DNA of 64,000 nucleotides from Rhodopseudomonas palustris. Lineage in GTDB: Bacteria > Pseudomonadota > Alphaproteobacteria > Rhizobiales > Xanthobacteraceae. Positions within the stretch are counted from its first letter, which is position 1; each line of letters starts with the position of its first letter. Shown here piece by piece: positions 30,762-42,816 of the stretch. The stretch covers positions 2,852,001-2,916,000 of the forward strand of contig NZ_CP058907.1 in assembly GCF_013415845.1 (NCBI RefSeq), in the 5' to 3' direction. The notes under the pieces were generated by a model. The model was not told the origin of the DNA. It did not search any database and saw only the letters and a program-made list of their open reading frames with translations. A program made the translations under genes and the position numbers.

Positions 30762-31211
30762 ATGGCCCCGAAGCACCATCCAACGCCACTCTCCGGAGGC
30801 GACCGGAAGGCGCTAAAGAAGGAGCTGGGCCGAGCACGCGCAGTGACAACCCTCCTAGCGGTCCAGTCGGCTGAGCTGCGGGCGAGGGGAGAGGCTCTGA
30901 TCCAGCAAGCCGACCGTCTACTGTGTGAAAGCTGGAACGAGCGGCTGTGGGCCGACGGCGGCCCAATCGACCCGTCGCCGACTATCGACCAAGCCGTCAA
31001 CGGGGGCTATTGCTGGATCGAAATCGAATGCTCACGGTGCAGAACACCGAATGAGGTCGACCTGGCGGCACTCCGTCACCCGTCGACGACCTGCGTTCAT
31101 GACCTTGCCAGTCGCCTTCGCTGCAGCAAGTGCGCGAAAGCAGGAAAACGGCCGCCGGCGACGCTACTTCAGCTGGCACAGCGCGCTCGACGTGTCGATC
31201 CGGAGACCTGA
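30762..31211 (+). CDS. Cys-motif protein, second gene of the SOS cassette
   Basis: A 149-residue protein. The N-terminal helix (KALKKELGRARAVTTLLAVQ) is followed by SWNERLW and PTIDQAVNGGYCWIEIECSR. Two Cys pairs, IECSRCRTP and LRCSKCAKA, likely bind one zinc, a possible nucleic-acid-binding ribbon. It begins 9 bases after the preceding gene and ends 2 bases before the SRAP start, so all are co-transcribed. Function is unknown; co-regulation with DinB and SRAP suggests a role in DNA damage. Confidence 0.72.
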   Translation: MAPKHHPTPLSGGDRKALKKELGRARAVTTLLAVQSAELRARGEALIQQADRLLCESWNERLWADGGPIDPSPTIDQAVNGGYCWIEIECSRCRTPNEVDLAALRHPSTTCVHDLASRLRCSKCAKAGKRPPATLLQLAQRARRVDPET

Positions 31212-31213
31212 CT

Positions 31214-31939
31214 TTGTGTAATCTGTACTCGATCACCACCAACCAATCGGCGATCATCGCCCTTTTCCGCGTGGTCAACCAGCACGTCGGCAACCTCGCG
31301 CCGATGCCCGGCGTATTTCCGGACTACAAGGCTCCAATCATCCGGAATGGGGTCGGCGGCCGCGAACTCGTGACTGCCAGATGGGGAATGCCGTCTTCAG
31401 CGAAGGCGCTGTTAGAAAATGCCCAAAAGCGAGCGGACAAGCTGCGAGCCAAAGGGAAGACGATCGATTTCAACGAAGTGCTGCGGATGGAGCCGGATGG
31501 CGGGACGACCAACATCCGCAATGTTAAGTCGAAGCACTGGACAAGGTGGCTTGGGCTCGAGCACCGATGCGTGGTCCCGTTAAACAGCTTCAGCGAATTC
31601 AACAAGGCCGCGGGTGGCGACATCTGGTTCGCACTCGACGAGACCCGCCCGCTCGCTTGCTTCGCCGGTATCTGGACCACCTGGACTTCGGTCCGAAAGG
31701 TGAAAGAGGGCGAGACGACCAACGACCTCTACGCGTTCCTCACGACCGAACCGAACGCCGAGGTCGGCGCCATCCATCCGAAAGCGATGCCCGTCATCCT
31801 GACAACGCCTGCCGAGGTCGAGACTTGGCTGTCGGCCTCTCAGGAGGAAGCCCTGAAGCTGCAGCGCCCGCTGCCGGACGGTGCGCTGCAGATCGTCGCT
31901 CGGGGCGTGAAGAAGGATGGGGATCTGCTCGCCGTTTGA
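31214..31939 (+). CDS. SRAP (HMCES/YedK-type) abasic-site-binding protein
   Basis: A 241-residue SOS-response-associated peptidase family protein. SRAP proteins expose Cys2 after removal of Met1; that Cys forms a thiazolidine crosslink with abasic sites in single-stranded DNA and protects them at forks. Here TTG at 31214 gives M-C2-N-L-Y-S, which fixes the start. Other expected parts are present: APMPGVFPDY, RWGMP, RCVVPLNSFSEF with its Glu, and the catalytic His in IHPKAMPVIL. It starts 2 bases after the previous stop and ends 4 bases before dinB, matching an SOS operon. Confidence 0.92.
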   Translation: MCNLYSITTNQSAIIALFRVVNQHVGNLAPMPGVFPDYKAPIIRNGVGGRELVTARWGMPSSAKALLENAQKRADKLRAKGKTIDFNEVLRMEPDGGTTNIRNVKSKHWTRWLGLEHRCVVPLNSFSEFNKAAGGDIWFALDETRPLACFAGIWTTWTSVRKVKEGETTNDLYAFLTTEPNAEVGAIHPKAMPVILTTPAEVETWLSASQEEALKLQRPLPDGALQIVARGVKKDGDLLAV

Positions 31940-31943
31940 CGCC

Positions 31944-33032
31944 ATGACCGAAACCTCTACTTCAGCCGCCCATCGTAAGATCATCCACGTCGACATGGAC
32001 GCGTTCTACGCCTCGGTCGAGCAGAGGGACGATCCGGCGCTGCGGGGAAAGCCGGTCGCAGTCGGTGGCTCGCGCGAGCGCGGAGTCGTTGCAGCCGCAA
32101 GCTACGAAGCTCGCAAGTTCGGCGTACGGTCGGCGATGCCGTCCGTCACCGCGAAACGTCAATGTCCCGACCTGATCTTCGTGAAGCCGCGCTTTGAGAT
32201 CTACAAGGCGATCAGCCTGCAGATCCGCGAGATCTTCGCGAAGCATACCGCGATCATAGAGCCGCTATCGCTGGACGAAGCCTATCTTGATGTGACGGAA
32301 AATCTTCAGAATATTCCGCTAGCGCGCGACATCGCCCTCGCCATCAGGGCGAAGATCAAGGAGGTCACCGGCCTCAATGCCTCCGCAGGCATCTCATACA
32401 ATAAATTTCTGGCCAAGCTCGCGTCCGATCACCGCAAGCCGAACGGCCAGTATGTGATCTCGCCGGAGATGGGACCTTCGTTCGTGGAGAGTCTGCCTGT
32501 CGGCAAATTCCACGGAATAGGTCCGGCGACTGCGGCGAAGTTCAACGGGCTTGGCATTCGAACTGGTCTGGATATTCGGAATCAGACCCTCGAATTTCTG
32601 CAGGGGCATTTCGGCAAGGCCGGAACTTACTACTACTGGATCTCGCGTGGCGTCGATGAGCGGCCGGTTCGCGCCAATCGCATCCGTAAGTCGGTCGGTG
32701 CGGAAAATACCTTCTCGTCCGACCTCACCTCGTTCGAGTCGATGGTCGCGGAGCTGCAACCCCTCATCGACAAGGTCTGGGGGCATTGCGAGAGGACCGG
32801 CAATCGAGGCCGGACTGTCACTCTCAAGATCAAGTTCGCGGACTTTGAGATCGTCTCAAGAAGCAGAACGTTGGCCAGCCCTGTTTCAAGTCGTGCAGCC
32901 CTCACGACCAGATCGGTCGGGCTGCTGGAGGCTGCGATGCCTTTGCCGAAACCGGTTCGGCTTCTTGGCATCTCGTTGTCGTCGCTAAAGAACGATGACG
33001 AAGTTGAGCCGCAATTCGGACTGCCTCTCTGA
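31944..33032 (+). CDS. dinB: DNA polymerase IV (Y-family translesion polymerase)
   Basis: A 362-residue error-prone polymerase that bypasses lesions. The catalytic motifs are visible: IIHVDMDAFYASVEQ (D17), YEARKFGVRSAMP, and SLDEAYLDV with D111 and E112. The helix-hairpin-helix GKFHGIGPATAAKF and the little-finger domain follow. Length is normal for DinB. No clear C-terminal beta-clamp-binding peptide was identified. The ATG at 31944 is 4 bases after the SRAP stop; a longer in-frame start inside the SRAP gene is unlikely. Regulation is presumably by the LexA box at 30328. Confidence 0.95.
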   Translation: MTETSTSAAHRKIIHVDMDAFYASVEQRDDPALRGKPVAVGGSRERGVVAAASYEARKFGVRSAMPSVTAKRQCPDLIFVKPRFEIYKAISLQIREIFAKHTAIIEPLSLDEAYLDVTENLQNIPLARDIALAIRAKIKEVTGLNASAGISYNKFLAKLASDHRKPNGQYVISPEMGPSFVESLPVGKFHGIGPATAAKFNGLGIRTGLDIRNQTLEFLQGHFGKAGTYYYWISRGVDERPVRANRIRKSVGAENTFSSDLTSFESMVAELQPLIDKVWGHCERTGNRGRTVTLKIKFADFEIVSRSRTLASPVSSRAALTTRSVGLLEAAMPLPKPVRLLGISLSSLKNDDEVEPQFGLPL

Positions 33033-33690: not shown

Positions 33691-33736
33691 ATTTGCGCTC
33701 GTCGTGCATGGTGAGATCGCGTCACGCGTCACCGCC

Positions 33737-33762
33737 AGCCTGCCACTCTAGATGACCGCGAC
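33737..33762. repeat. Copy of the 26-bp repeat seen at the hipBA promoter
   Basis: AGCCTG-CCACTCTAGATGAC followed by CGCGAC matches 39655-39680 apart from one gap and three or four substitutions. It abuts precisely the point where hipA homology ends, as expected for an insertion-sequence end or recombination junction. Confidence 0.6.
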
Positions 33763-34007
33763 AGGTTTGAAAATCGAGAGCGCCTGCGCGACCCGAACCC
33801 GAATTCAGCATAAAGGTCAGCTCGTCGAATTCGACATATTGGCCGCGTGGCCTTTGAGACCCGTCAGGCGATTGATGACGTCGCGCCGCCCACAGGCATC
33901 GGGCACGCCGTCGCGCAGACAGTTCGCCATCATCAGCGGAGCATTCGGCTGCATTGCGCCGCGCTGCAGCGGCAGATCCGATAAATTGATCGGGATCGCC
34001 TGCTTGA
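33763..34007 (-). pseudogene. hipA fragment (relic)
   Basis: Read on the minus strand, about 245 bases match the part of the intact hipA gene from about 40288 to 40530 at high identity. The intact gene at that place encodes QAIPIY through RGAMLPNAP to GALDFQT. The relic has a 1-base deletion in the stretch corresponding to DAAKDVEF, which breaks the frame, and lacks the rest of the gene on both sides. The similarity is clear by eye, including EFDELTFMLNSGS. It shows that more than one hipA copy has existed here. Confidence 0.8.
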
Positions 34008-34224
34008 GACTGAATGTTGTAAGCCGAAAGGGGAACAGCGTTTAGAGCCGAGCACAAAATAAGCCCTATGTCATATCTGCCTTCTGTCGGAGGTCGGGTG
34101 CTGAGCTGCGAATACTGGTGGCTGCAAACCAGCATGAATTCACCCGCCTCGGGCATTTCCCTCCGCACAACTTGTCGAATGCAAAGCGCAGTTCGACGAT
34201 CTGGAAGTGGAAAGGGAGGGGAGT

Positions 34225-34611
34225 ATGTCTCAGTCAAAGGATAAAGATATCGTGTTCTGTAAGTTGGCATTGGAGTGCATGCGTTTTTCAGAGGAATCAG
34301 GAAATTACCGCTCACTGCAATTGCAGATCGAAGCGAAGCATCCCACTATGCAAGAGTGCACTGACCAGAAAATAAGAACAGAATACACGGCGCTATTAGC
34401 ACGCGTTGCAAACGCTCGAGCGTACGAACAATTGCACGGGGAAGGGAGCCTTCTAAATCTTAATCATCCATCAGTGCAGCGTCACATTAAGCGTCGTCTA
34501 ATTGGAGAAGAGAGAGTGGCGGCCGCAACGGCGCAAGCGAATCGCCAGTCACGGTCCGAATTGACTTCTCGCTCCGTTATCTTCCCAAGCAGCGTCGACT
34601 GCGTCTGGTAA
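34225..34611 (+). CDS. Hypothetical protein
   Basis: A 128-residue helical, charged protein with no recognised domain (CKLALECMRFSEESGNYRSL, later SVQRHIKRRLIGEERVAAA). The ATG at 34225 has GGGAGGGG just upstream; an in-frame GTG at 34207 is less likely. The 3' end overlaps the convergent small gene of the SIR2-HerA set by 63 bases. It may be an accessory of the island or unrelated. Confidence 0.5.
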   Translation: MSQSKDKDIVFCKLALECMRFSEESGNYRSLQLQIEAKHPTMQECTDQKIRTEYTALLARVANARAYEQLHGEGSLLNLNHPSVQRHIKRRLIGEERVAAATAQANRQSRSELTSRSVIFPSSVDCVW

Positions 34612-34974
34612 CGACAGGTAGTAGCCGACAACGGTTTTGCCACGTAGAACTATAAACGAGACGCCGTCGGTTAGCACGACGTAGCCCTCCGGGCACTGGT
34701 CGGTAGCGTTCTGATCGAGAACAAAGTAGGCCCAGCGCGATTGCCTTTCTATTTCGTTCCCGCTGACGGGCCCATCGCAAAATTGAGCATCCATCGCCTT
34801 CTCAATCTCGACCTTATAGTTGGCTCTCCAGCGTTGGGGTATCGGTTTCAGAGTTGGGGAGAAATCTCCAGCGCATGTTACGAGAAAGTACAGCGTTTCT
34901 GAATCGCCAGATGCTTCGATGTCTACTAATGCAATTTTCAACTGTGTATCCTTGATAGGTTGAAATTCGCTCAA
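34549..34974 (-). CDS. Small unknown protein, last gene of the SIR2-HerA set
   Basis: A 141-residue protein beginning MSEFQPIKDTQLKIALVDIEA. It is strand-rich with no recognised motif, signal peptide or membrane segment. Its ATG is 14 bases after the HerA stop on the same strand, so it is probably translated from the same mRNA. The known SIR2-HerA pair does not need such a gene, so this could be an added regulator, inhibitor or activator, or a bystander. Confidence 0.6.
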   Translation of the reverse strand: MSEFQPIKDTQLKIALVDIEASGDSETLYFLVTCAGDFSPTLKPIPQRWRANYKVEIEKAMDAQFCDGPVSGNEIERQSRWAYFVLDQNATDQCPEGYVVLTDGVSFIVLRGKTVVGYYLSLPDAVDAAWEDNGARSQFGP

Positions 34975-34988
34975 AATGTGAGGGCATG

Positions 34989-36725
34989 CTATTTGACAAG
35001 CGTCTGCCGCCTCCAGCTTTCCACTGCTTTATCAAGCGTCCCCTTGGAAGTCTTGTCTGCCCAGCAATCCCAGAATTCAATGGTCCCGCTAAGGGGCTCG
35101 CTGTTTGGTTTGGCAATGCGGATGCGGGTCGGCAGCAGAATTGCGTCACCGACTACCAGCGCTTCGCCAGTATCAAGAACAGGCAGGAGATCGCTAAATC
35201 CGCCTAAGCTATCGGGGAGCAAGCGGCGAACTACAGCTTGGTCGTCACCGTTTGTCAGCCGCATCGCGATCAGGTTGTTGCATTGGCTAACAACAGTCCG
35301 GTTCACCTCTGCCGGACGTTGGCTAATAACCACCAAACCGACGCCGTACTTTCGACCTTCTTTGGCGATGCGTTCGAACATACCAATAGCATTTTCGGCT
35401 GCTCCGGAGGTGGCGTCTTGTGGGATGTATAGGTGGGCCTCATCACAAAAGAGAGCCACAGGGTGGCGCGTTCCCTGAGCGCTCCATTGCTGCACGTGGA
35501 ATGCTAGTCTAGCCACCATTCCAACAATGAGTGGCAGAATGTCGGATGGCACTTCCGAGAAGTCGATTACCTTGACGCCACCGGAGCCCCCCTTGGCCGA
35601 AGTGCCGCCGAGAAGGAGCCCAACGACCTCGTCAAGCCAACTATAACTATCGGCGATTCCGTTTCGTGGAAACAGGAAACCGAGCCTGCGGTCGGTGCGC
35701 TTTCCTTCCAGACGCTGGATCAATCGGCTTAGCTTGCCGTGAAAGTCACCTTGCTTTTCGGACCTGGCACCCGGCACCATCTCAGTGTTCAATCTATTAA
35801 GTTCCGACAGGATGAAGTCTGCTGAAAATGGAACGGGGCTGTCGATGGTAAAGTTTGCAAGAACGTCGTGATGGCCGCCCGACGTGAGGAAGTCAGTCTT
35901 AGCCTCAACAACAGCTCTTTGCATCACCATGGCCTGATTTGGCGCATTCTGATCGCTTCGATCTACGAACATTGAAACGAGCGCCTCGTAGCTCATTAAC
36001 CAGTATGGCAAATGGAGCACGCCCTCGGCGAGGCCTCGGCCAGCGTCTATGTCTCCGGGGCCGGCGACGCGGAGATGCACAAATCCGTTTCCCTGCATCG
36101 AAGCATACTCACCATGCATGTCGAACACGATGGCATTGGCGCTCTCAAGTTCAGCGACTTGCTCTAGAAGTCGTGCGGTCGTCCATGACTTACCAGAGCC
36201 TGTGCTTCCAACTACGAGAGCGTGGCGTTGGAAGAGCTTGTTGCCATTCACATAAGCCTCGGCCTTCGGATCGAGCGTATATGCGCCGAGCGATAGGCGC
36301 TGGGGACCTGCTGTCACCTGAGAAATGACGCCCATGAATCGGGTAAGCCGTTCGCCTTCAAGAGCGAAGCAACAGGCGTCGATTTCTGGTACTGTCTCAA
36401 GCGTCCTCCGAAATACGTTCGCTCGAGTACCCTCGCGATCGAGAAGCGTGCCAATCAAGGTGATGCGGACGAGGTTTACTTCCGTATGAGCTTGCTCCGT
36501 TTGGTCAATGTCCGATACTTTCGCTTCTTCGAGCGCGGTGCGAGTAATCTTGTGGATGACGCCAATGAGTTTTTGGCCAGCCAAACTGCTCTGAAGCGTC
36601 ACCAGTCGGTTCACTTGTAATGCGCGCAGAGCTTCAATATCGTCTACCTGAACGATCACGGTTGCCGTATCGACTGACTTCACGCGACCAAGCGCCTCCT
36701 CGTCAGAAAAATTAAAGATGCTCAT
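34989..36725 (-). CDS. herA: HerA-family ATPase of a SIR2-HerA defence system
   Basis: A 578-residue FtsK/HerA-type hexameric ATPase. An N-terminal beta-barrel (HAS-like, about residues 10-110) precedes the motor domain. Walker A is GSTGSGKSW at 173-181, Walker B LFCDEAHLYIP with D428 and E429, and the Q-loop SQRPAEV at 468-474. In SIR2-HerA systems (also called Nezha) the ATPase assembles with the SIR2 NADase and helps sense phage, leading to NAD+ loss. The true start is ATG 36725, which overlaps the SIR2 stop as ATGA. Such overlap shows co-translation. Confidence 0.9.
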   Translation of the reverse strand: MSIFNFSDEEALGRVKSVDTATVIVQVDDIEALRALQVNRLVTLQSSLAGQKLIGVIHKITRTALEEAKVSDIDQTEQAHTEVNLVRITLIGTLLDREGTRANVFRRTLETVPEIDACCFALEGERLTRFMGVISQVTAGPQRLSLGAYTLDPKAEAYVNGNKLFQRHALVVGSTGSGKSWTTARLLEQVAELESANAIVFDMHGEYASMQGNGFVHLRVAGPGDIDAGRGLAEGVLHLPYWLMSYEALVSMFVDRSDQNAPNQAMVMQRAVVEAKTDFLTSGGHHDVLANFTIDSPVPFSADFILSELNRLNTEMVPGARSEKQGDFHGKLSRLIQRLEGKRTDRRLGFLFPRNGIADSYSWLDEVVGLLLGGTSAKGGSGGVKVIDFSEVPSDILPLIVGMVARLAFHVQQWSAQGTRHPVALFCDEAHLYIPQDATSGAAENAIGMFERIAKEGRKYGVGLVVISQRPAEVNRTVVSQCNNLIAMRLTNGDDQAVVRRLLPDSLGGFSDLLPVLDTGEALVVGDAILLPTRIRIAKPNSEPLSGTIEFWDCWADKTSKGTLDKAVESWRRQTLVK

Positions 36726-37774
36726 GCAAGTACCCCTATTACATGGTTGAGAAATTGATCGAGTCGCCAAAGTGGCTGATCAAGCGTGAACCCGGTTGGT
36801 ATTGCGTTTGTGTAGGCGAGAGCGCCGCTCGTAGCTCCTTCTTCGATCGCTAAGTATCGGCGGCATCGTCCGCTAGAAAGGAATGCTTTTGCAGCTGGTG
36901 ACAATTCTTTTGTGAGGACAATGAGAGGAACGGCATCGCGGTCGCAGCGCTCAACCAGTTTTGTTTGCAGGTGCTCATCGTTGAATCCGTACCCGACGCA
37001 TAAATACGCGCGGGCAGATGATAGCGCGCTGTCGCTGCAGCTCAATATTGTACGAAAGGGTTCACCATGCGTCAGGCGAAATTTGTCCAGGCCCGGTGTG
37101 ACCATGAGTGGTACGTAGCCGGGCGGGACAGATCCGGTGTTACGTAGTCCGACTATTTGATGGTCGGAATCCTGGAACCAGTCGAGAGACCCGTGAACCT
37201 TCCAAATTGCGACAGTGCGTAGAGGTCGACCCTCGACGGTTATTCGAACGTTTGATGAAGGTGCCCGATTTTGAAGATGACCGTAGGTGAATCCAGTGAA
37301 GGTGCTGATATTTGCGGCGTCAGCTGCGTATTCGGCAAGGCGATCATAATTAGGGGTTACGACGTGTAGCGTTTTGTGGGTACTGTCGAAGAGGTGCGTG
37401 TATAGGCGGGTTAGCGGGAGGTAGCGTCGATCCGTCAGCAGAGTGTCTAGAACATTCATATCGTATGGTACGAGAAATTGGCGGGTCGCACTTGCGATGA
37501 AGTGTGTTTGTCTCTCGGTTGGGCGTACAGATTGAAGAGCGCTTTCGAGGTCAACGCCGCGTTTTAGCTCCGCGAGAAGAGCCGTCCATTCGTTGGTTTC
37601 ATGCGTCGTCCAGCCGGGATCCGCATGCGCTGCAGATAGATGAGTGGCCAAAGCGTTCATGCTGGGTACGCCATGTGCAGCTGATGCCCCGCTCCCGAGG
37701 ATGATCACCGGTGCTAAGCTAAGTGTGCTTTGCGCAAATTCTTGAGCCAAATCGGCGGCTGACGGCTTTGCCAT
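36722..37774 (-). CDS. SIR2-domain NADase of a SIR2-HerA defence system
   Basis: A 350-residue SIR2-family protein. The NAD-binding Gly-rich loop is GSGASAAHGVPSM at 27-39. The catalytic region is TPNYDRLAEY with N142, and the conserved His lies in KVHGSLDW at H194. A second NAD-binding stretch is GYGFNDEHL at 261-269. These are all the residues expected for NAD+ hydrolysis. In defence systems SIR2 effectors empty the cell of NAD+ on phage infection. It precedes HerA by an ATGA overlap and follows the Mrr-like gene by about 170 bases. Confidence 0.9.
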   Translation of the reverse strand: MAKPSAADLAQEFAQSTLSLAPVIILGSGASAAHGVPSMNALATHLSAAHADPGWTTHETNEWTALLAELKRGVDLESALQSVRPTERQTHFIASATRQFLVPYDMNVLDTLLTDRRYLPLTRLYTHLFDSTHKTLHVVTPNYDRLAEYAADAANISTFTGFTYGHLQNRAPSSNVRITVEGRPLRTVAIWKVHGSLDWFQDSDHQIVGLRNTGSVPPGYVPLMVTPGLDKFRLTHGEPFRTILSCSDSALSSARAYLCVGYGFNDEHLQTKLVERCDRDAVPLIVLTKELSPAAKAFLSSGRCRRYLAIEEGATSGALAYTNAIPTGFTLDQPLWRLDQFLNHVIGVLA

Positions 37775-37947
37775 TCTGATTAGTTCCTAAAAATGCCTAC
37801 GAATGGCGGAGCTCTTGCGAATCGTAGAGCGGTAAGAAGCGCATGACGGCGTTGAGCTTGACGAGTTGTGGAGCAGCTCTAACCGATTGAAGCATCTGCA
37901 ATGCAAGGCGCTGCAAACGTGCTAATGTTCGCAAGAAACGATCGCAA

Positions 37948-39159
37948 TTATCGTCTAAACGCGATGTCGGTTACTACGATGCTCTGGAGAGACTCAAGAT
38001 GGCCAGTCACACGATAGGCGAACGTTTCGTTCCCGGAGTAGCCATTGTCGCCGTCATCCGTTGAGCCGTATACGTCAAAGTGGACCATGGCCGTGAATAG
38101 TACGCCATCGTCTGTGGCAAATTCGACCTCGTCAGCTTCGATGTTCTTGATTTCGGTGAATTCATGAAACCGCTCTATTTCCCACAGCGTATGCTGATCC
38201 CAGAATGTCTCGTCAGTCAGGTTTAGGAGAACTAGATCATCGTATAGCTCCCAAAGTGTTTCTTGGTCGCACCTCGCCGCTACCGATAATTCTACCTCGT
38301 CGGTGAATTGTTCGAATTCGCGAAGTATTTTGATCACGTTGTAGATGCGACTGCTGTCGTCATCTTTCTGCGCGAGATGGAGGAGGTGTCTATAGGCGTC
38401 GTTTGGAAAGGACCTAATTAGGTGGTCCGTAAACGCGAGGAAGGCGTCGAAGTGAAGCTGCTGGATCTGCCTTATTGCCAAATCATTCGGATTTTGTGCG
38501 ATAACCTTTGGGACAATCTGATCAATAAGAGTTTGTTGATCGAAGTCGTGTGGCCAAACGTTGATACCGCGCACCAATTGTAGCCGTTCCTGGTGCGGCA
38601 TGAGGTGTAGTCGTAGGGCACCCACGACTACTCGTGGCACGGACTTCTCGATTCGCTTGCGAGCGGCTTCAATTTCAATTGCTGCGTTCTTCGCCATTTC
38701 TCTTGGAAAGAATTGACGCAGCAAATCCGCAAACTGTTCCGAGAGCAGCATTGATGTTATCGCGAAGCGATCCCATACCCTCGTTTGAACGGGATCTTGA
38801 GGGTTGCTCTGCAAGGCGTCCAGCTTTGCCTTTAATGCCGTGCCCACCGTGGTTGTTGTTGCCAACAGGAAGCCGTCGCAATTGTGTTGGCGCACTTTGT
38901 CTAAGACGCTGCCAACATCTTGTTCGCTGACCGATTGGTTGGTCTTGGAATTGTCTTTGCAGCTGACGAGCCAGCGCACTGGTGTTGACCCGATCTGTCC
39001 CGTCTGCGTCTCGGTAAAGATGAGATCTCGTCCCTGGTCCGCGCCGCGCCCAGTCCAGGAGACAGCGAGACCTAATCGCTCTCCGATCAGGCGCACCAGG
39101 CCTTCAAGGTTCTCGCCGGTTGGCTTGCTGCTAAGTTCGCTAAAATCGAGTGTTGCCAT
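37948..39159 (-). CDS. Mrr-like restriction endonuclease-domain protein
   Basis: A 403-residue protein. Residues 10-150 form a PD-(D/E)xK nuclease-like domain of the Mrr type: GADQGRDLIFTE supplies the Asp, and RWLVSCKDNSK supplies the Lys, with the usual Glu/Gln replaced by Ser. The region DGFLLATTTTVGTALKAKL follows as in related proteins. The remaining 250 residues have no domain I recognise. ATG 39159 is favoured because domain homology starts there; an ATG at 39204 is possible. It lies upstream on the same strand as SIR2-HerA, so it may be a third component, but the 173-base gap allows an independent promoter. Confidence 0.75.
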   Translation of the reverse strand: MATLDFSELSSKPTGENLEGLVRLIGERLGLAVSWTGRGADQGRDLIFTETQTGQIGSTPVRWLVSCKDNSKTNQSVSEQDVGSVLDKVRQHNCDGFLLATTTTVGTALKAKLDALQSNPQDPVQTRVWDRFAITSMLLSEQFADLLRQFFPREMAKNAAIEIEAARKRIEKSVPRVVVGALRLHLMPHQERLQLVRGINVWPHDFDQQTLIDQIVPKVIAQNPNDLAIRQIQQLHFDAFLAFTDHLIRSFPNDAYRHLLHLAQKDDDSSRIYNVIKILREFEQFTDEVELSVAARCDQETLWELYDDLVLLNLTDETFWDQHTLWEIERFHEFTEIKNIEADEVEFATDDGVLFTAMVHFDVYGSTDDGDNGYSGNETFAYRVTGHLESLQSIVVTDIAFRR

Positions 39160-39349
39160 CCACGTCTCGCGTGAACCCCTGGAAGGGTCTAGACAATGTT
39201 GCATTCGATAGGTTTGGGAGAGCCTTCAGGCGAGCGCAAAAAAAGACTCAATCAGGGCTTGCTTTCGGAAGGCATTGCACGATTGGGGCGGCGTTGGGAA
39301 GGGATGTGCCTTTAACCGCCTGTTTACCGAAGTATTTGCTCCTATGTGC

Positions 39350-39375
39350 AAAACCCGCCGTTTCCGGCGGGTTTT
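39350..39375. terminator. Hairpin terminator, left copy
   Basis: AAAACCCGCCG, loop TTTC, CGGCGGGTTTT: an 11-bp stem with a T-rich 3' side. An almost identical hairpin is found at 41519-41546. Here it lies upstream of the nuclease gene rather than downstream of a plus-strand gene, which fits duplication. It could act on both strands. Confidence 0.65.
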
Positions 39376-39420
39376 ATTTTACCGCTTAGGCATACGGTCT
39401 AACTTTGGGATGATTTGCGG

Positions 39421-39461
39421 CGCACTTTGGCTGAAGCCGGCCATCCTATGCCAGCATCTAC
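39421..39461 (+). repeat. Direct repeat flanking hipBA, left copy
   Basis: About 41 bases matching 41588-41628 at 33 positions, including the identical 13-mer GGCCATCCTATGC. With the neighbouring hairpin the pair forms an imperfect repeat of about 110 bases in the same order and spacing on both sides of hipBA. Confidence 0.65.
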
Positions 39462-39682
39462 ACTTCTGTTGAGGTAGCCAAAGGATATCGCAGCGCACTC
39501 CGTAAGTCGTTGCAAATGTTCAGCGGGAATCTCGAAAGTGCCGCAGTGCCGCGCTCGGAGGATTGGCCGAACTGCTCGCGCTGGGCTTTCGGCAACAGCG
39601 ACTTAAGGCCGACCAGCAGCTTGGCGCTAGCAGAATGGTCGGGTTTCGCTGCTAGCCTGACCACTCTAAATGACCGCCACAA
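39458..39682 (-). pseudogene. Possible IS66-type transposase fragment
   Basis: A 74-codon minus-strand frame contains LLVGLKSLLPKAQREQFGQSSER, which resembles the N-terminal helix and (R)FGxSSE motif of IS66 transposases. Before and after that motif there is no similarity I can recognise, and the frame is far too short for a whole gene. Assignment rests on this motif alone. Confidence 0.3.
39655..39680. repeat. Second copy of the 26-bp repeat
   Basis: This copy, with CTCTAAATGACCGCCAC, matches 33737-33762, where it abuts the hipA relic. Its right part is also the left arm of the inverted repeat at 39666-39772. Confidence 0.6.
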
Positions 39683-39772
39683 CAGGCATATTGCCTCTTA
39701 TGACTGTTATAGCGGTCAATGCTTGCAAGAAGGTCAAATGTTTGCTATGTGACTGATGTGGCGGTCATTTAG
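39666..39772. repeat. Perfect 16-bp inverted repeat around the hipB promoter
   Basis: CTAAATGACCGCCACA at 39666-39681 is exactly inverted at 39757-39772, giving a 107-bp unit. Between and after the arms GGTCA occurs repeatedly. It could be a HipB operator array, a small non-autonomous element, or paired insertion-sequence ends. Confidence 0.75.
39723..39751 (+). promoter_or_regulatory. Probable hipBA promoter
   Basis: TTGCAA at 39723-39728 and TATGTG at 39746-39751 are 17 bases apart, a sigma-70-like spacing. The right arm of the inverted repeat lies just downstream of the -10, where a repressor would block transcription. HipB-type proteins autoregulate in this way. Confidence 0.45.
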
Positions 39773-39799
39773 GTCCTCACGCCTTCTATATCGGTCAAA

Positions 39800-40147
39800 A
39801 TGGAAATCTCATCTCGCAAACGCCCGCGCACCTACTCGCGCCTCACGAAAGAAGCTCTGGAGCTGCTGGGCAAGCAAGTGCGCCTCGCGCGCAAGCAGCG
39901 TCGCATGTCCGAGGCCGATCTGGCGGCTCGCGTGGGTATCGCGCGCAGCACGCTTCAACTGATCGAAAAGGGCGATCCGAAGGTCGAGATGGGCCTCGCA
40001 TTCGAAGCCGCGACATTGGCCGGCGTGAGCCTGTTCGTGCCCGAGGCCTCGACACTTGCATCTCAATCGGAACGGCTCAACGACAAGCTCGCGCTTCTCC
40101 CGAAGTCGATCCGTCGTCCGCGCAAAGAGGTCGACGATGATTTCTAA
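39800..40147 (+). CDS. hipB: HipB-like XRE-family antitoxin
   Basis: A 115-residue helix-turn-helix antitoxin. The XRE fold covers about residues 20-75: LGKQVRLARKQRRMSEADLAARVGIARSTLQLIEKGDP. The basic N-terminus and charged C-terminal tail are typical of HipB relatives that bind HipA and the operon's own promoter. The stop overlaps hipA by 11 bases. Confidence 0.9.
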   Translation: MEISSRKRPRTYSRLTKEALELLGKQVRLARKQRRMSEADLAARVGIARSTLQLIEKGDPKVEMGLAFEAATLAGVSLFVPEASTLASQSERLNDKLALLPKSIRRPRKEVDDDF

Positions 40148-41420
40148 GAACGAAAAGCGCGAGGCCCCACAGACTGCGTTTGTGTGGATCTGGCTGCCAA
40201 ATGCCGATGAACCGATCGTGGCTGGCCGTATCGATCGCGATGGCGATCTTTACGCTTTCACCTACGGCCGAAACTATCTCGCGCACAAGCAGGCGATCCC
40301 GATCTATTTGCCGGAGCTGCCGTTGCAGCGCGGCGCAATGCTGCCGAACGCTCCTCTGTTGATGGCGAGCTGTCTGCGCGACGGCGCGCCCGATGCCTGG
40401 GGGCGGCGCGTCGTCATCAATCGCCTGACAGGTCTTAAAGGCGACGCGGCCAAAGATGTCGAATTCGACGAGCTGACATTCATGCTGAATTCGGGTTCGG
40501 ATCGCGCCGGCGCTCTCGATTTTCAAACCTCTGCCGATGTTTACAAGCCGCGTGATCAAGCCAGCGCGACGCTGGAACAATTGATGACCGCGGCCGAGTT
40601 CGTCGAGCGCGGCGAGCCGATTCCGCAGGCGCTCGACAACGCGCTCTTTCATGGCAGCTCGATCGGTGGCGCGAGACCCAAGGCGTTGATTGAAGATGGT
40701 GCTAAGAAGTATATCGCGAAATTCTCCGCGACGAACGACACCTATGCTGTCGTTAAAGCCGAATTCATCGCGATGCGGCTTGCTGCGCGGGCCGGTCTCG
40801 TTGTCGCTCCCGTTTCCCTGTGCGCGGTCGCTGGCAAGGATGTGCTGCTGGTCGAAAGGTTTGATCGCACGCGTGCGGGCAAAGCGTGGCGTCGCCGCGC
40901 TATGGTCTCCGCTCTTACGCTGTTCGGACTCGATGAGCTGTCGGCACGCCACGCGAGTTACACCGAACTCGCCGACATCGTTCGAGCGCGCTTCACCGCG
41001 CCGCAGGAAACGTTGCGTGAGCTGTATGCGCGGATGGTGTTCAATGTGCTGGTCGGCAACACCGACGATCATGCGCGCAATCATGCCGCGTTCTGGGACG
41101 GATCCACTCTGACACTGACGCCAGCCTACGACATCTGCCCGCAAGCTCGCAACGCGCGGGAGGCGAACCAGGCGATTGGCATCGACGGCAACGAACGCAG
41201 AAGTTTGCTCAAAGCCTGCCGCGCGGCCGCGCCCAAGTTCCTACTGAACGATAACGACGCGCGCGCCGTCATCGACGGTCAGGTTGTAACGATTCGGCAG
41301 AGTTGGGCCGACGTTTGTGACGAAGCCGGCTTGAGCGAGATCGATCGGACGTTCCTATGGCAGCGCCAATTTCTGAATGACTACGCATTCGACGGCTACT
41401 CAACATTTGCGACCGAATAA
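40137..41420 (+). CDS. hipA: HipA-like serine/threonine kinase toxin
   Basis: A 427-residue HipA-family toxin. HipA phosphorylates a cytoplasmic target (an aminoacyl-tRNA synthetase in the studied cases) to induce dormancy. The N-subdomain contains RGAMLPNAPLL and CLRDGAPDAWGRRV. The Gly-rich ATP loop is SSIGGARPKA at 174-183. The catalytic loop is NTDDHARNH at 308-316, followed by the metal-binding AYDICP. All parts needed for kinase activity are seen. ATG 40137 lies inside hipB; an upstream in-frame start is unlikely. A broken fragment of a near-identical gene lies at 33763-34007. Confidence 0.93.
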   Translation: MISKNEKREAPQTAFVWIWLPNADEPIVAGRIDRDGDLYAFTYGRNYLAHKQAIPIYLPELPLQRGAMLPNAPLLMASCLRDGAPDAWGRRVVINRLTGLKGDAAKDVEFDELTFMLNSGSDRAGALDFQTSADVYKPRDQASATLEQLMTAAEFVERGEPIPQALDNALFHGSSIGGARPKALIEDGAKKYIAKFSATNDTYAVVKAEFIAMRLAARAGLVVAPVSLCAVAGKDVLLVERFDRTRAGKAWRRRAMVSALTLFGLDELSARHASYTELADIVRARFTAPQETLRELYARMVFNVLVGNTDDHARNHAAFWDGSTLTLTPAYDICPQARNAREANQAIGIDGNERRSLLKACRAAAPKFLLNDNDARAVIDGQVVTIRQSWADVCDEAGLSEIDRTFLWQRQFLNDYAFDGYSTFATE

Positions 41421-41518: not shown

Positions 41519-41546
41519 AAAAACCCGCCGTTTCCGGCGGGTTTTT
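41519..41546 (+). terminator. Hairpin terminator after hipBA, right copy
   Basis: AAAAACCCGCCG, loop TTTC, CGGCGGGTTTTT: a 12-bp stem followed by T. It lies 98 bases after the hipA stop and is correctly placed to end its transcript. It is nearly identical to the hairpin at 39350. Confidence 0.8.
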
Positions 41547-41587
41547 CGTTACGAAGCGAGTGCGGCATAATATGCACTGCATTGGGA

Positions 41588-41628
41588 CAGACTTTGGGTG
41601 AATCTGGCCATCCTATGCGAACATTTAC
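41588..41628 (+). repeat. Direct repeat flanking hipBA, right copy
   Basis: Partner of 39421-39461: 33 of 41 positions agree, including GGCCATCCTATGC. It sits about 45 bases after its hairpin, close to the 49 bases on the left. The wording GGGTGAA-x-CTGGCCA recalls IS21-type ends, from memory only. Confidence 0.65.
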
Positions 41629-41936
41629 AACAACATTTAAACGAGCGCTTCCAGAGCGCCCGGTTGTACTTCCGCAGGTAGAACATTTTCGACAGATCCC
41701 AAGTCGATTTTGCCTCTTCACCGACTAGCTGCCAATTCCACTCTATCGATGGTCGCTGCGGCTTTCGTCGTGATGTTCATCGCGCCGCTTAAAATCATCA
41801 ATTTAACTAAACTGTTTCGCAGGCTCATTCTGTTCTTCGCAGATCGTGGCTCTCATGCCGTGGGGTGCAGGTTGCCAAAACGCATCGTAACTTGCTGCAA
41901 TCAACCGTATGCTGGCCTCGGAGGTGGGAGGTTAAC

Positions 41937-42600: not shown

Positions 42601-42816
42601 TCAGTTGCAGGAAAAGCGTTTCACCAAGTGCTTGGTGACGAAACCATAGCCGCAGGTGTCGCAGGTCCATAGATAGCTCACCACGCTTTCGGTGAGATAC
42701 GCCGATGCTTCGGCTGCGACCATCGAGTCGGCGCAGACCGGGCAGGTGGGAAGATCGCTGCCGCGCGGTGCGGGACGAGGAACGTTGGTCGACAGAACTT
42801 CAGCAATCGCCGGCAT
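42601..42816 (-). CDS. Small zinc-ribbon protein
   Basis: A 71-residue protein with two Cys pairs, LPTCPVCADSM and WTCDTCGYGFV, forming a zinc ribbon. Similar small proteins are common in Bradyrhizobium relatives, with no assigned role. ATG 42816 is fixed by GAGGAGG upstream; the frame extends 7 codons further. Confidence 0.7.
   Translation of the reverse strand: MPAIAEVLSTNVPRPAPRGSDLPTCPVCADSMVAAEASAYLTESVVSYLWTCDTCGYGFVTKHLVKRFSCN

Follow-up and report, generated by a model that had tools for sequence, protein, structure and literature searches.

Four minus-strand genes in a 64,000-nucleotide stretch of Rhodopseudomonas palustris contig NZ_CP058907.1 (positions 2,852,001 to 2,916,000; hereafter the window) raise the question of where an anti-phage system ends. 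Does the SIR2-HerA gene pair at their centre form the whole system, or do an Mrr-like nuclease gene on one side and a small gene on the other belong to it, as a sequence-only reading of the window had proposed? We conclude that the SIR2 gene (36722-37774) and the HerA gene (34989-36725) very probably make up a complete two-gene SIR2-HerA (Nezha) module, and that the Mrr-like gene (37948-39159) and the small gene (34549-34974) are its neighbours, not its subunits.

All four open reading frames were found on the minus strand in the order proposed: nuclease-like, SIR2, HerA, small protein. The SIR2-family subunit, an expected NADase, has 350 residues and the HerA-type ATPase subunit 578. As had been noticed, the HerA start and the SIR2 stop overlap at ATGA, sharing 4 nt. 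The Mrr-like gene (403 residues) ends 173 nt before the SIR2 start, so it is not coupled to SIR2 the way SIR2 is to HerA. The small gene had been placed 14 nt past HerA. This holds from its first TTG start (141 residues), and the distance becomes 47 nt if the second TTG, at 34941, is used (130 residues).

The identity of the pair was borne out by PADLOC, Pfam and Protein Data Bank (PDB) matches and by its pairing at other loci. The SIR2 protein matched the PADLOC SIR2 model PDLC04087 nearly end to end (residues 8-345, expect value (E) 2.5e-125), together with the Pfam domain SIR2_2 (PF13289, E 1.1e-7). HerA matched the PADLOC HerA model PDLC04105 over residues 1-575, again nearly end to end (E 1.8e-240), and Pfam DUF87 (E 2.9e-28). 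The catalytic residues that had been called intact were all present in the translations: N142 and H194 in SIR2, and in HerA a Walker A motif, GSTGSGKS, at 173-180 and D428/E429 inside CDEAH. As in Nezha, a SIR2_2-type domain with catalytic Asn and His is followed by a HerA/FtsK-type ATPase with Walker A and Walker B motifs, and the two genes are adjacent on one strand with SIR2 first.

Pairing was followed at 24 further SIR2 loci, taken from searches of the family (5), the order (6), the class (4), viral contigs (4) and plasmids (5). The cut-offs were E 4e-34 or better for the family, 1e-30 for the order and 1e-40 for the class. The family set does not include 19 weaker places with E 2.3e-10 or worse; they come from 17 genomes, among them G168, where a strong place is present too. 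The plasmid search gave 157 records, 5 of which were read around SIR2. HerA adjoined SIR2 on the same strand at 24/24 loci, with a spacing of -4 to +12 nt; these loci are not independent, as L061-L064 are mutually alike and so are L049-L051. At one locus (L096), the HerA match was split over two separate open reading frames. N142 and H194 were invariant across a 23-row SIR2 alignment. A pattern search found K[VLI]HGS in 20 of the 24 SIR2 proteins of the compared loci and KPHGS in 3 more. The remaining homologue (L060 8564-9703) has neither; it carries an NYD motif and no HG[ST] motif, and the region of its catalytic His may be altered. The pair in the window is supported by its domains, its intact catalytic motifs, the translational overlap of the two genes and the recurrence of the pairing in other genomes.

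The flanking genes did not share this conservation. Relatives of the Mrr-like or the small protein were present at 0/24 SIR2-HerA loci (tblastn, E <= 0.1). The reverse comparison covered 14 Mrr-like loci: 12 from genome contigs, one from a genome of the same genus (G108) and one from another genus (G189). The last (L046) is a gene piece with an internal stop, L011-L013 match the nuclease part alone, and L008, L009 and L012 have little DNA on one side; L045, a repeat of L002, was left out, and a partial match in G178 (L042) lies outside the sample. A HerA or small-protein match was found at none of the 14. The sole SIR2 match among them, at L010, was weak (E 0.016) and belongs to a different, 406-residue SIR2_2 protein. 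Among 198 genomes of the same family, the Mrr-like gene was matched in 5 (two of them partially) and SIR2 in 22 (16 weakly), and both were matched in the window's own genome alone. The same was true of 385 genomes of the class, with SIR2 in 5 and the Mrr-like gene in 1; as this one is the window's own copy, searching the class adds little on the Mrr-like gene. G108 and Afipia sp. 64-13 (G106) have the Mrr-like gene and no SIR2 match.

A check of four-gene co-occurrence across genomes had been suggested with the proposal of an extended system, and it gave the outcome that had been named as refuting the proposal: at the loci examined, neither flanking gene accompanies the pair, and the pair does not accompany the Mrr-like gene. 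Because neither was found beside the pair at the other loci examined, the Mrr-like and small genes are best explained as chance neighbours in a variable island. An extended operon was rejected on this co-occurrence. The idea that HerA could pair with the Mrr-like protein instead was rejected too, since HerA was missing from 14/14 Mrr-like loci. Same-strand gene order proved weak grounds for assuming a multi-gene system: across genomes, the pair recurs and the flanking genes do not.

The small gene may begin at its second TTG, which is preceded by AAGGA and is where the database entry (P0102) starts. Searches of Pfam, PADLOC and NCBIfam gave no match to its protein, and none was found on plasmids. 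Among 5.8 billion proteins, relatives were confined to its own cluster, in a search that needs shared short words and that distant relatives could escape. Among the 198 family genomes, the gene was found in one, its own. The length of the frame proves nothing by itself, because 17% of shuffles of the 1.27 kb contained an open frame as long. Codon usage speaks to some extent for a real gene. The codon score, 0.01, exceeded those of the other five frames (-0.10 to -0.33) and was reached by 0/2000 single-base shuffles; it lies below the median of known gene pieces (0.10), whose wide range also takes in the next-best frame.

Several observations weigh against a self-contained pair, some of them concerning the flanking genes. 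In a scan of 33700-39900, 2 promoter-like sites were found (3.5 expected), both within SIR2, and 12 terminator-like sites (6.8 expected). None of the latter lies in the gap between the Mrr-like gene and SIR2, so a shared transcript is possible, although such a scan settles nothing on transcripts. This would suit a four-gene system in which the Mrr-like nuclease cuts phage DNA, SIR2-HerA depletes nicotinamide adenine dinucleotide (NAD+) and the small protein acts as a regulator of the complex, as would the common strand of all four genes and the short distance from HerA to the small gene. Moreover, the database entries of the Mrr-like and small genes (P0001 and P0102) occur on 33 and 32 contigs, respectively, so the two genes probably stay together within the species of the window. 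We nevertheless give this arrangement hardly any probability, given the counts of 0/24 and 0/14, the two genomes with an Mrr-like gene and no SIR2 match, and the 173-nt gap. A three-gene system, with the orphan gene supplying a species-specific small modulator such as an inhibitor or a sensor, is the least improbable of the alternatives and still very unlikely. It draws on the closeness of the small gene to HerA, on its coding signal and on the AAGGA before one of its TTG starts. It has to face a protein without relatives outside its own cluster, and the closest pairs examined (L059, SIR2 70%; L095, 61%) lack the small gene. The fold of the small protein was not predictable either, a single-sequence structure prediction being uninformative (predicted local distance difference test (pLDDT) 34.9). 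A combination of both ideas seems a shade less probable again: the small protein would be a lineage-specific modulator of the pair, and the atypical Mrr-like nuclease would be an independent second effector, co-regulated with it by coincidence. The variable surroundings of the pair and the 245-bp hipA fragment next to it might suggest a remnant that has decayed or has no role in defence; with both frames at full length and all tested motifs present, we consider this about as improbable as the four-gene system.

The other adverse observations concern the pair itself. The top PDB chains for HerA were 8ziq, 9c1m and 8xau (235, 231 and 215 bits), and the HerA chains of the three solved SIR2-HerA complexes scored lower (170, 103 and 92 bits). 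8xau is the HerA of a DUF4297-HerA complex, and we take 8ziq and 9c1m to be DUF4297-HerA as well. The SIR2 chains of the three SIR2-HerA complexes were all distant from the window SIR2, whose best profile match (E 1.3e-14) covered about half its length. NAD+ loss may also not be the whole mechanism, and a nuclease contribution is possible, because further activities have been published for relatives. The E. coli SIR2-HerA is described as having helicase and nuclease activities besides NAD+ hydrolysis (PMC11559045), and a review names degradation of phage genes as the outcome (PMC12198126). In favour of the two-gene module, the pair alone is enough in a relative: in V. cholerae, a deletion of a whole defence island that spared only SIR2 herA is reported to have left resistance to two ICP1 phages in place (PMC11559045).

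For the window pair, NAD+ depletion would be the likeliest mechanism, since published relatives deplete NAD+. By analogy, a HerA hexamer would bind a SIR2 dodecamer and open its NAD+ pocket; upon infection, SIR2 would destroy NAD+, and the cell would stop supporting the phage. In the review, a SIR2 dodecamer is described with a HerA hexamer, HerA opens the NAD+ pocket in S. aureus, and activation is otherwise called unclear (PMC12198126). For the V. cholerae Nezha, the SIR2 active-site residues N168 and H227 are reported to be required, as is HerA for the phages tested (PMC11559045). Two sir2/herA pairs of S. thermophilus were cloned, with resistance reported for one (PMC11514479).

HerA partners were also surveyed on plasmids, where 8 of the 97 records with a HerA match were read; these stand outside the 24 loci. 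SIR2 lay upstream in both records with a HerA at 45% identity. In the six at 31-35%, the upstream gene was an annotated DUF4297 (1), SIR2 (1) or a hypothetical protein (4). An upstream partner annotated as Mrr-like was found in none of the 8. Because the upstream partners differ, these records fit one HerA chassis with exchangeable partners, which is already known in outline. A single distant match to HerA, which carries the label terminase, was found among annotated phage records. The clade whose HerA is about 45% identical (L114, a Citrobacter plasmid, and L049, L050 and L051) has SIR2-HerA close to methylase genes, to SNF2 or DEAD-box helicase genes, or to both. In L114, the pair and the methylase- and helicase-type genes form a closely spaced run on one strand, and it is a better place than the window to seek an extended SIR2-HerA operon.

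The Mrr-like gene is best read as a predicted stand-alone restriction-type nuclease that most likely acts alone. Residues 14-114 hold a Mrr_cat domain (Pfam E 1.4e-8; 35.3 bits, with the cut-off at 21), as expected of an Mrr-like type IV restriction enzyme, and PADLOC returned a weak match only (candidate PDC-S02, E 4.1e-4). A homologue search gave 101 proteins including its own, and no relatives were found on viral contigs. The AlphaFold2 model, a confident one made from 35 rows (mean pLDDT 88.9, predicted template modelling score 0.60), has an N-terminal alpha/beta nuclease-type part, a helical middle and C-terminal strands. The top Foldseek matches, AspBHI (E 2.0e-5) and MspJI (E 1.7e-4), were partial, with 144-174 columns and a template modelling (TM) score of 0.23-0.26 of the query, which would fit a correspondence to the nuclease domain alone. 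D45 and K68 were invariant in 35/35 rows. The middle position of the usual (D/E/Q)xK motif, normally acidic or Gln, was Ser (20) or Asn (15), and the invariant residues E16, E50 and E79 might substitute for it. At the C-terminus, pP_pnuc_2 was found in 5 of 9 scanned homologues (4 above the cut-off) and not in the window's own protein.

Neighbours within 3 kb were compared at 11 Mrr-like loci. Shared ones occurred between the near relatives L006 and L010, and SRAP-like genes were shared by L003 and L010; no other shared neighbour, and thus no conserved partner, was found in this range. In L003 (10001-11879, Bradyrhizobium sp. NAS96.2), 4 nt separate the end of the Mrr-like gene from a following gene that resembles the SRAP gene of the window. 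In G108, a 97-bp fragment (L044 12028-12124) downstream of the full Mrr-like gene is 94% identical to window positions 38139-38235, and it suggests a second Mrr-like copy that would have been lost.

In five genomes of the same genus, similarity to the right-hand flank of the window stops at 42601-42603, and beyond this point no window match of at least 80 bases was found in their stretches (~17-18 kb each). The fifth of these, G108, has a lower similarity and the reverse orientation. G189 has relatives of the window from 50.9 to 42.6 kb and at 41.9-42.2 kb, followed by the piece of an Mrr-like gene; SIR2, HerA and the small gene had no match in its 19.9 kb. Because the flank similarity stops here and G189 lacks the pair, the four genes, judged by these alignments, lie in a variable stretch. 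The surroundings include a HipB-HipA-like pair at 39800-41420 and, on the other side, a SRAP gene followed by a Y-family polymerase gene (31130-33032). A 245-bp hipA piece at 33763-34006 is inverted and 91% identical to 40286-40530; the four genes lie between this piece and the full hipA, and it may mark a past rearrangement. A direct repeat of about 114 bp (39350-39462 and 41520-41629, 73% identical) flanks the hip genes, and its first copy holds a terminator-like hairpin. The genome has only these two copies (E <= 0.001), and Afipia sp. 64-13 has a similar one upstream of its Mrr-like gene (L002 9579-9694).

Compared with known systems, the Mrr-like protein resembles Mrr/MspJI-type modification-dependent restriction enzymes in its Mrr_cat domain and its partial AspBHI and MspJI fold matches. 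It differs from them in the Ser/Asn motif position, the helical part and the C-terminal part, and the pP_pnuc_2 C-terminus of its homologues is a further difference. DUF4297-HerA comes closest to the window in its HerA chains, and differs in that the window partner is SIR2 and not a DUF4297 nuclease. With SIR2-HerA (Nezha; GAO_19), the window pair shares adjacent SIR2_2 and HerA ATPase genes in this order, the catalytic N and H, and the Walker motifs. Its relatives occur on plasmids and beside other defence-type genes, as described for published systems (PMC11559045, PMC11514479); the literature passages available contained no experiment on the clade of the window pair. The window SIR2 is short and only distantly similar to the solved ones. 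With the window, a SIR2-HerA clade that has no close match among PDB chains gains a full-length pair.

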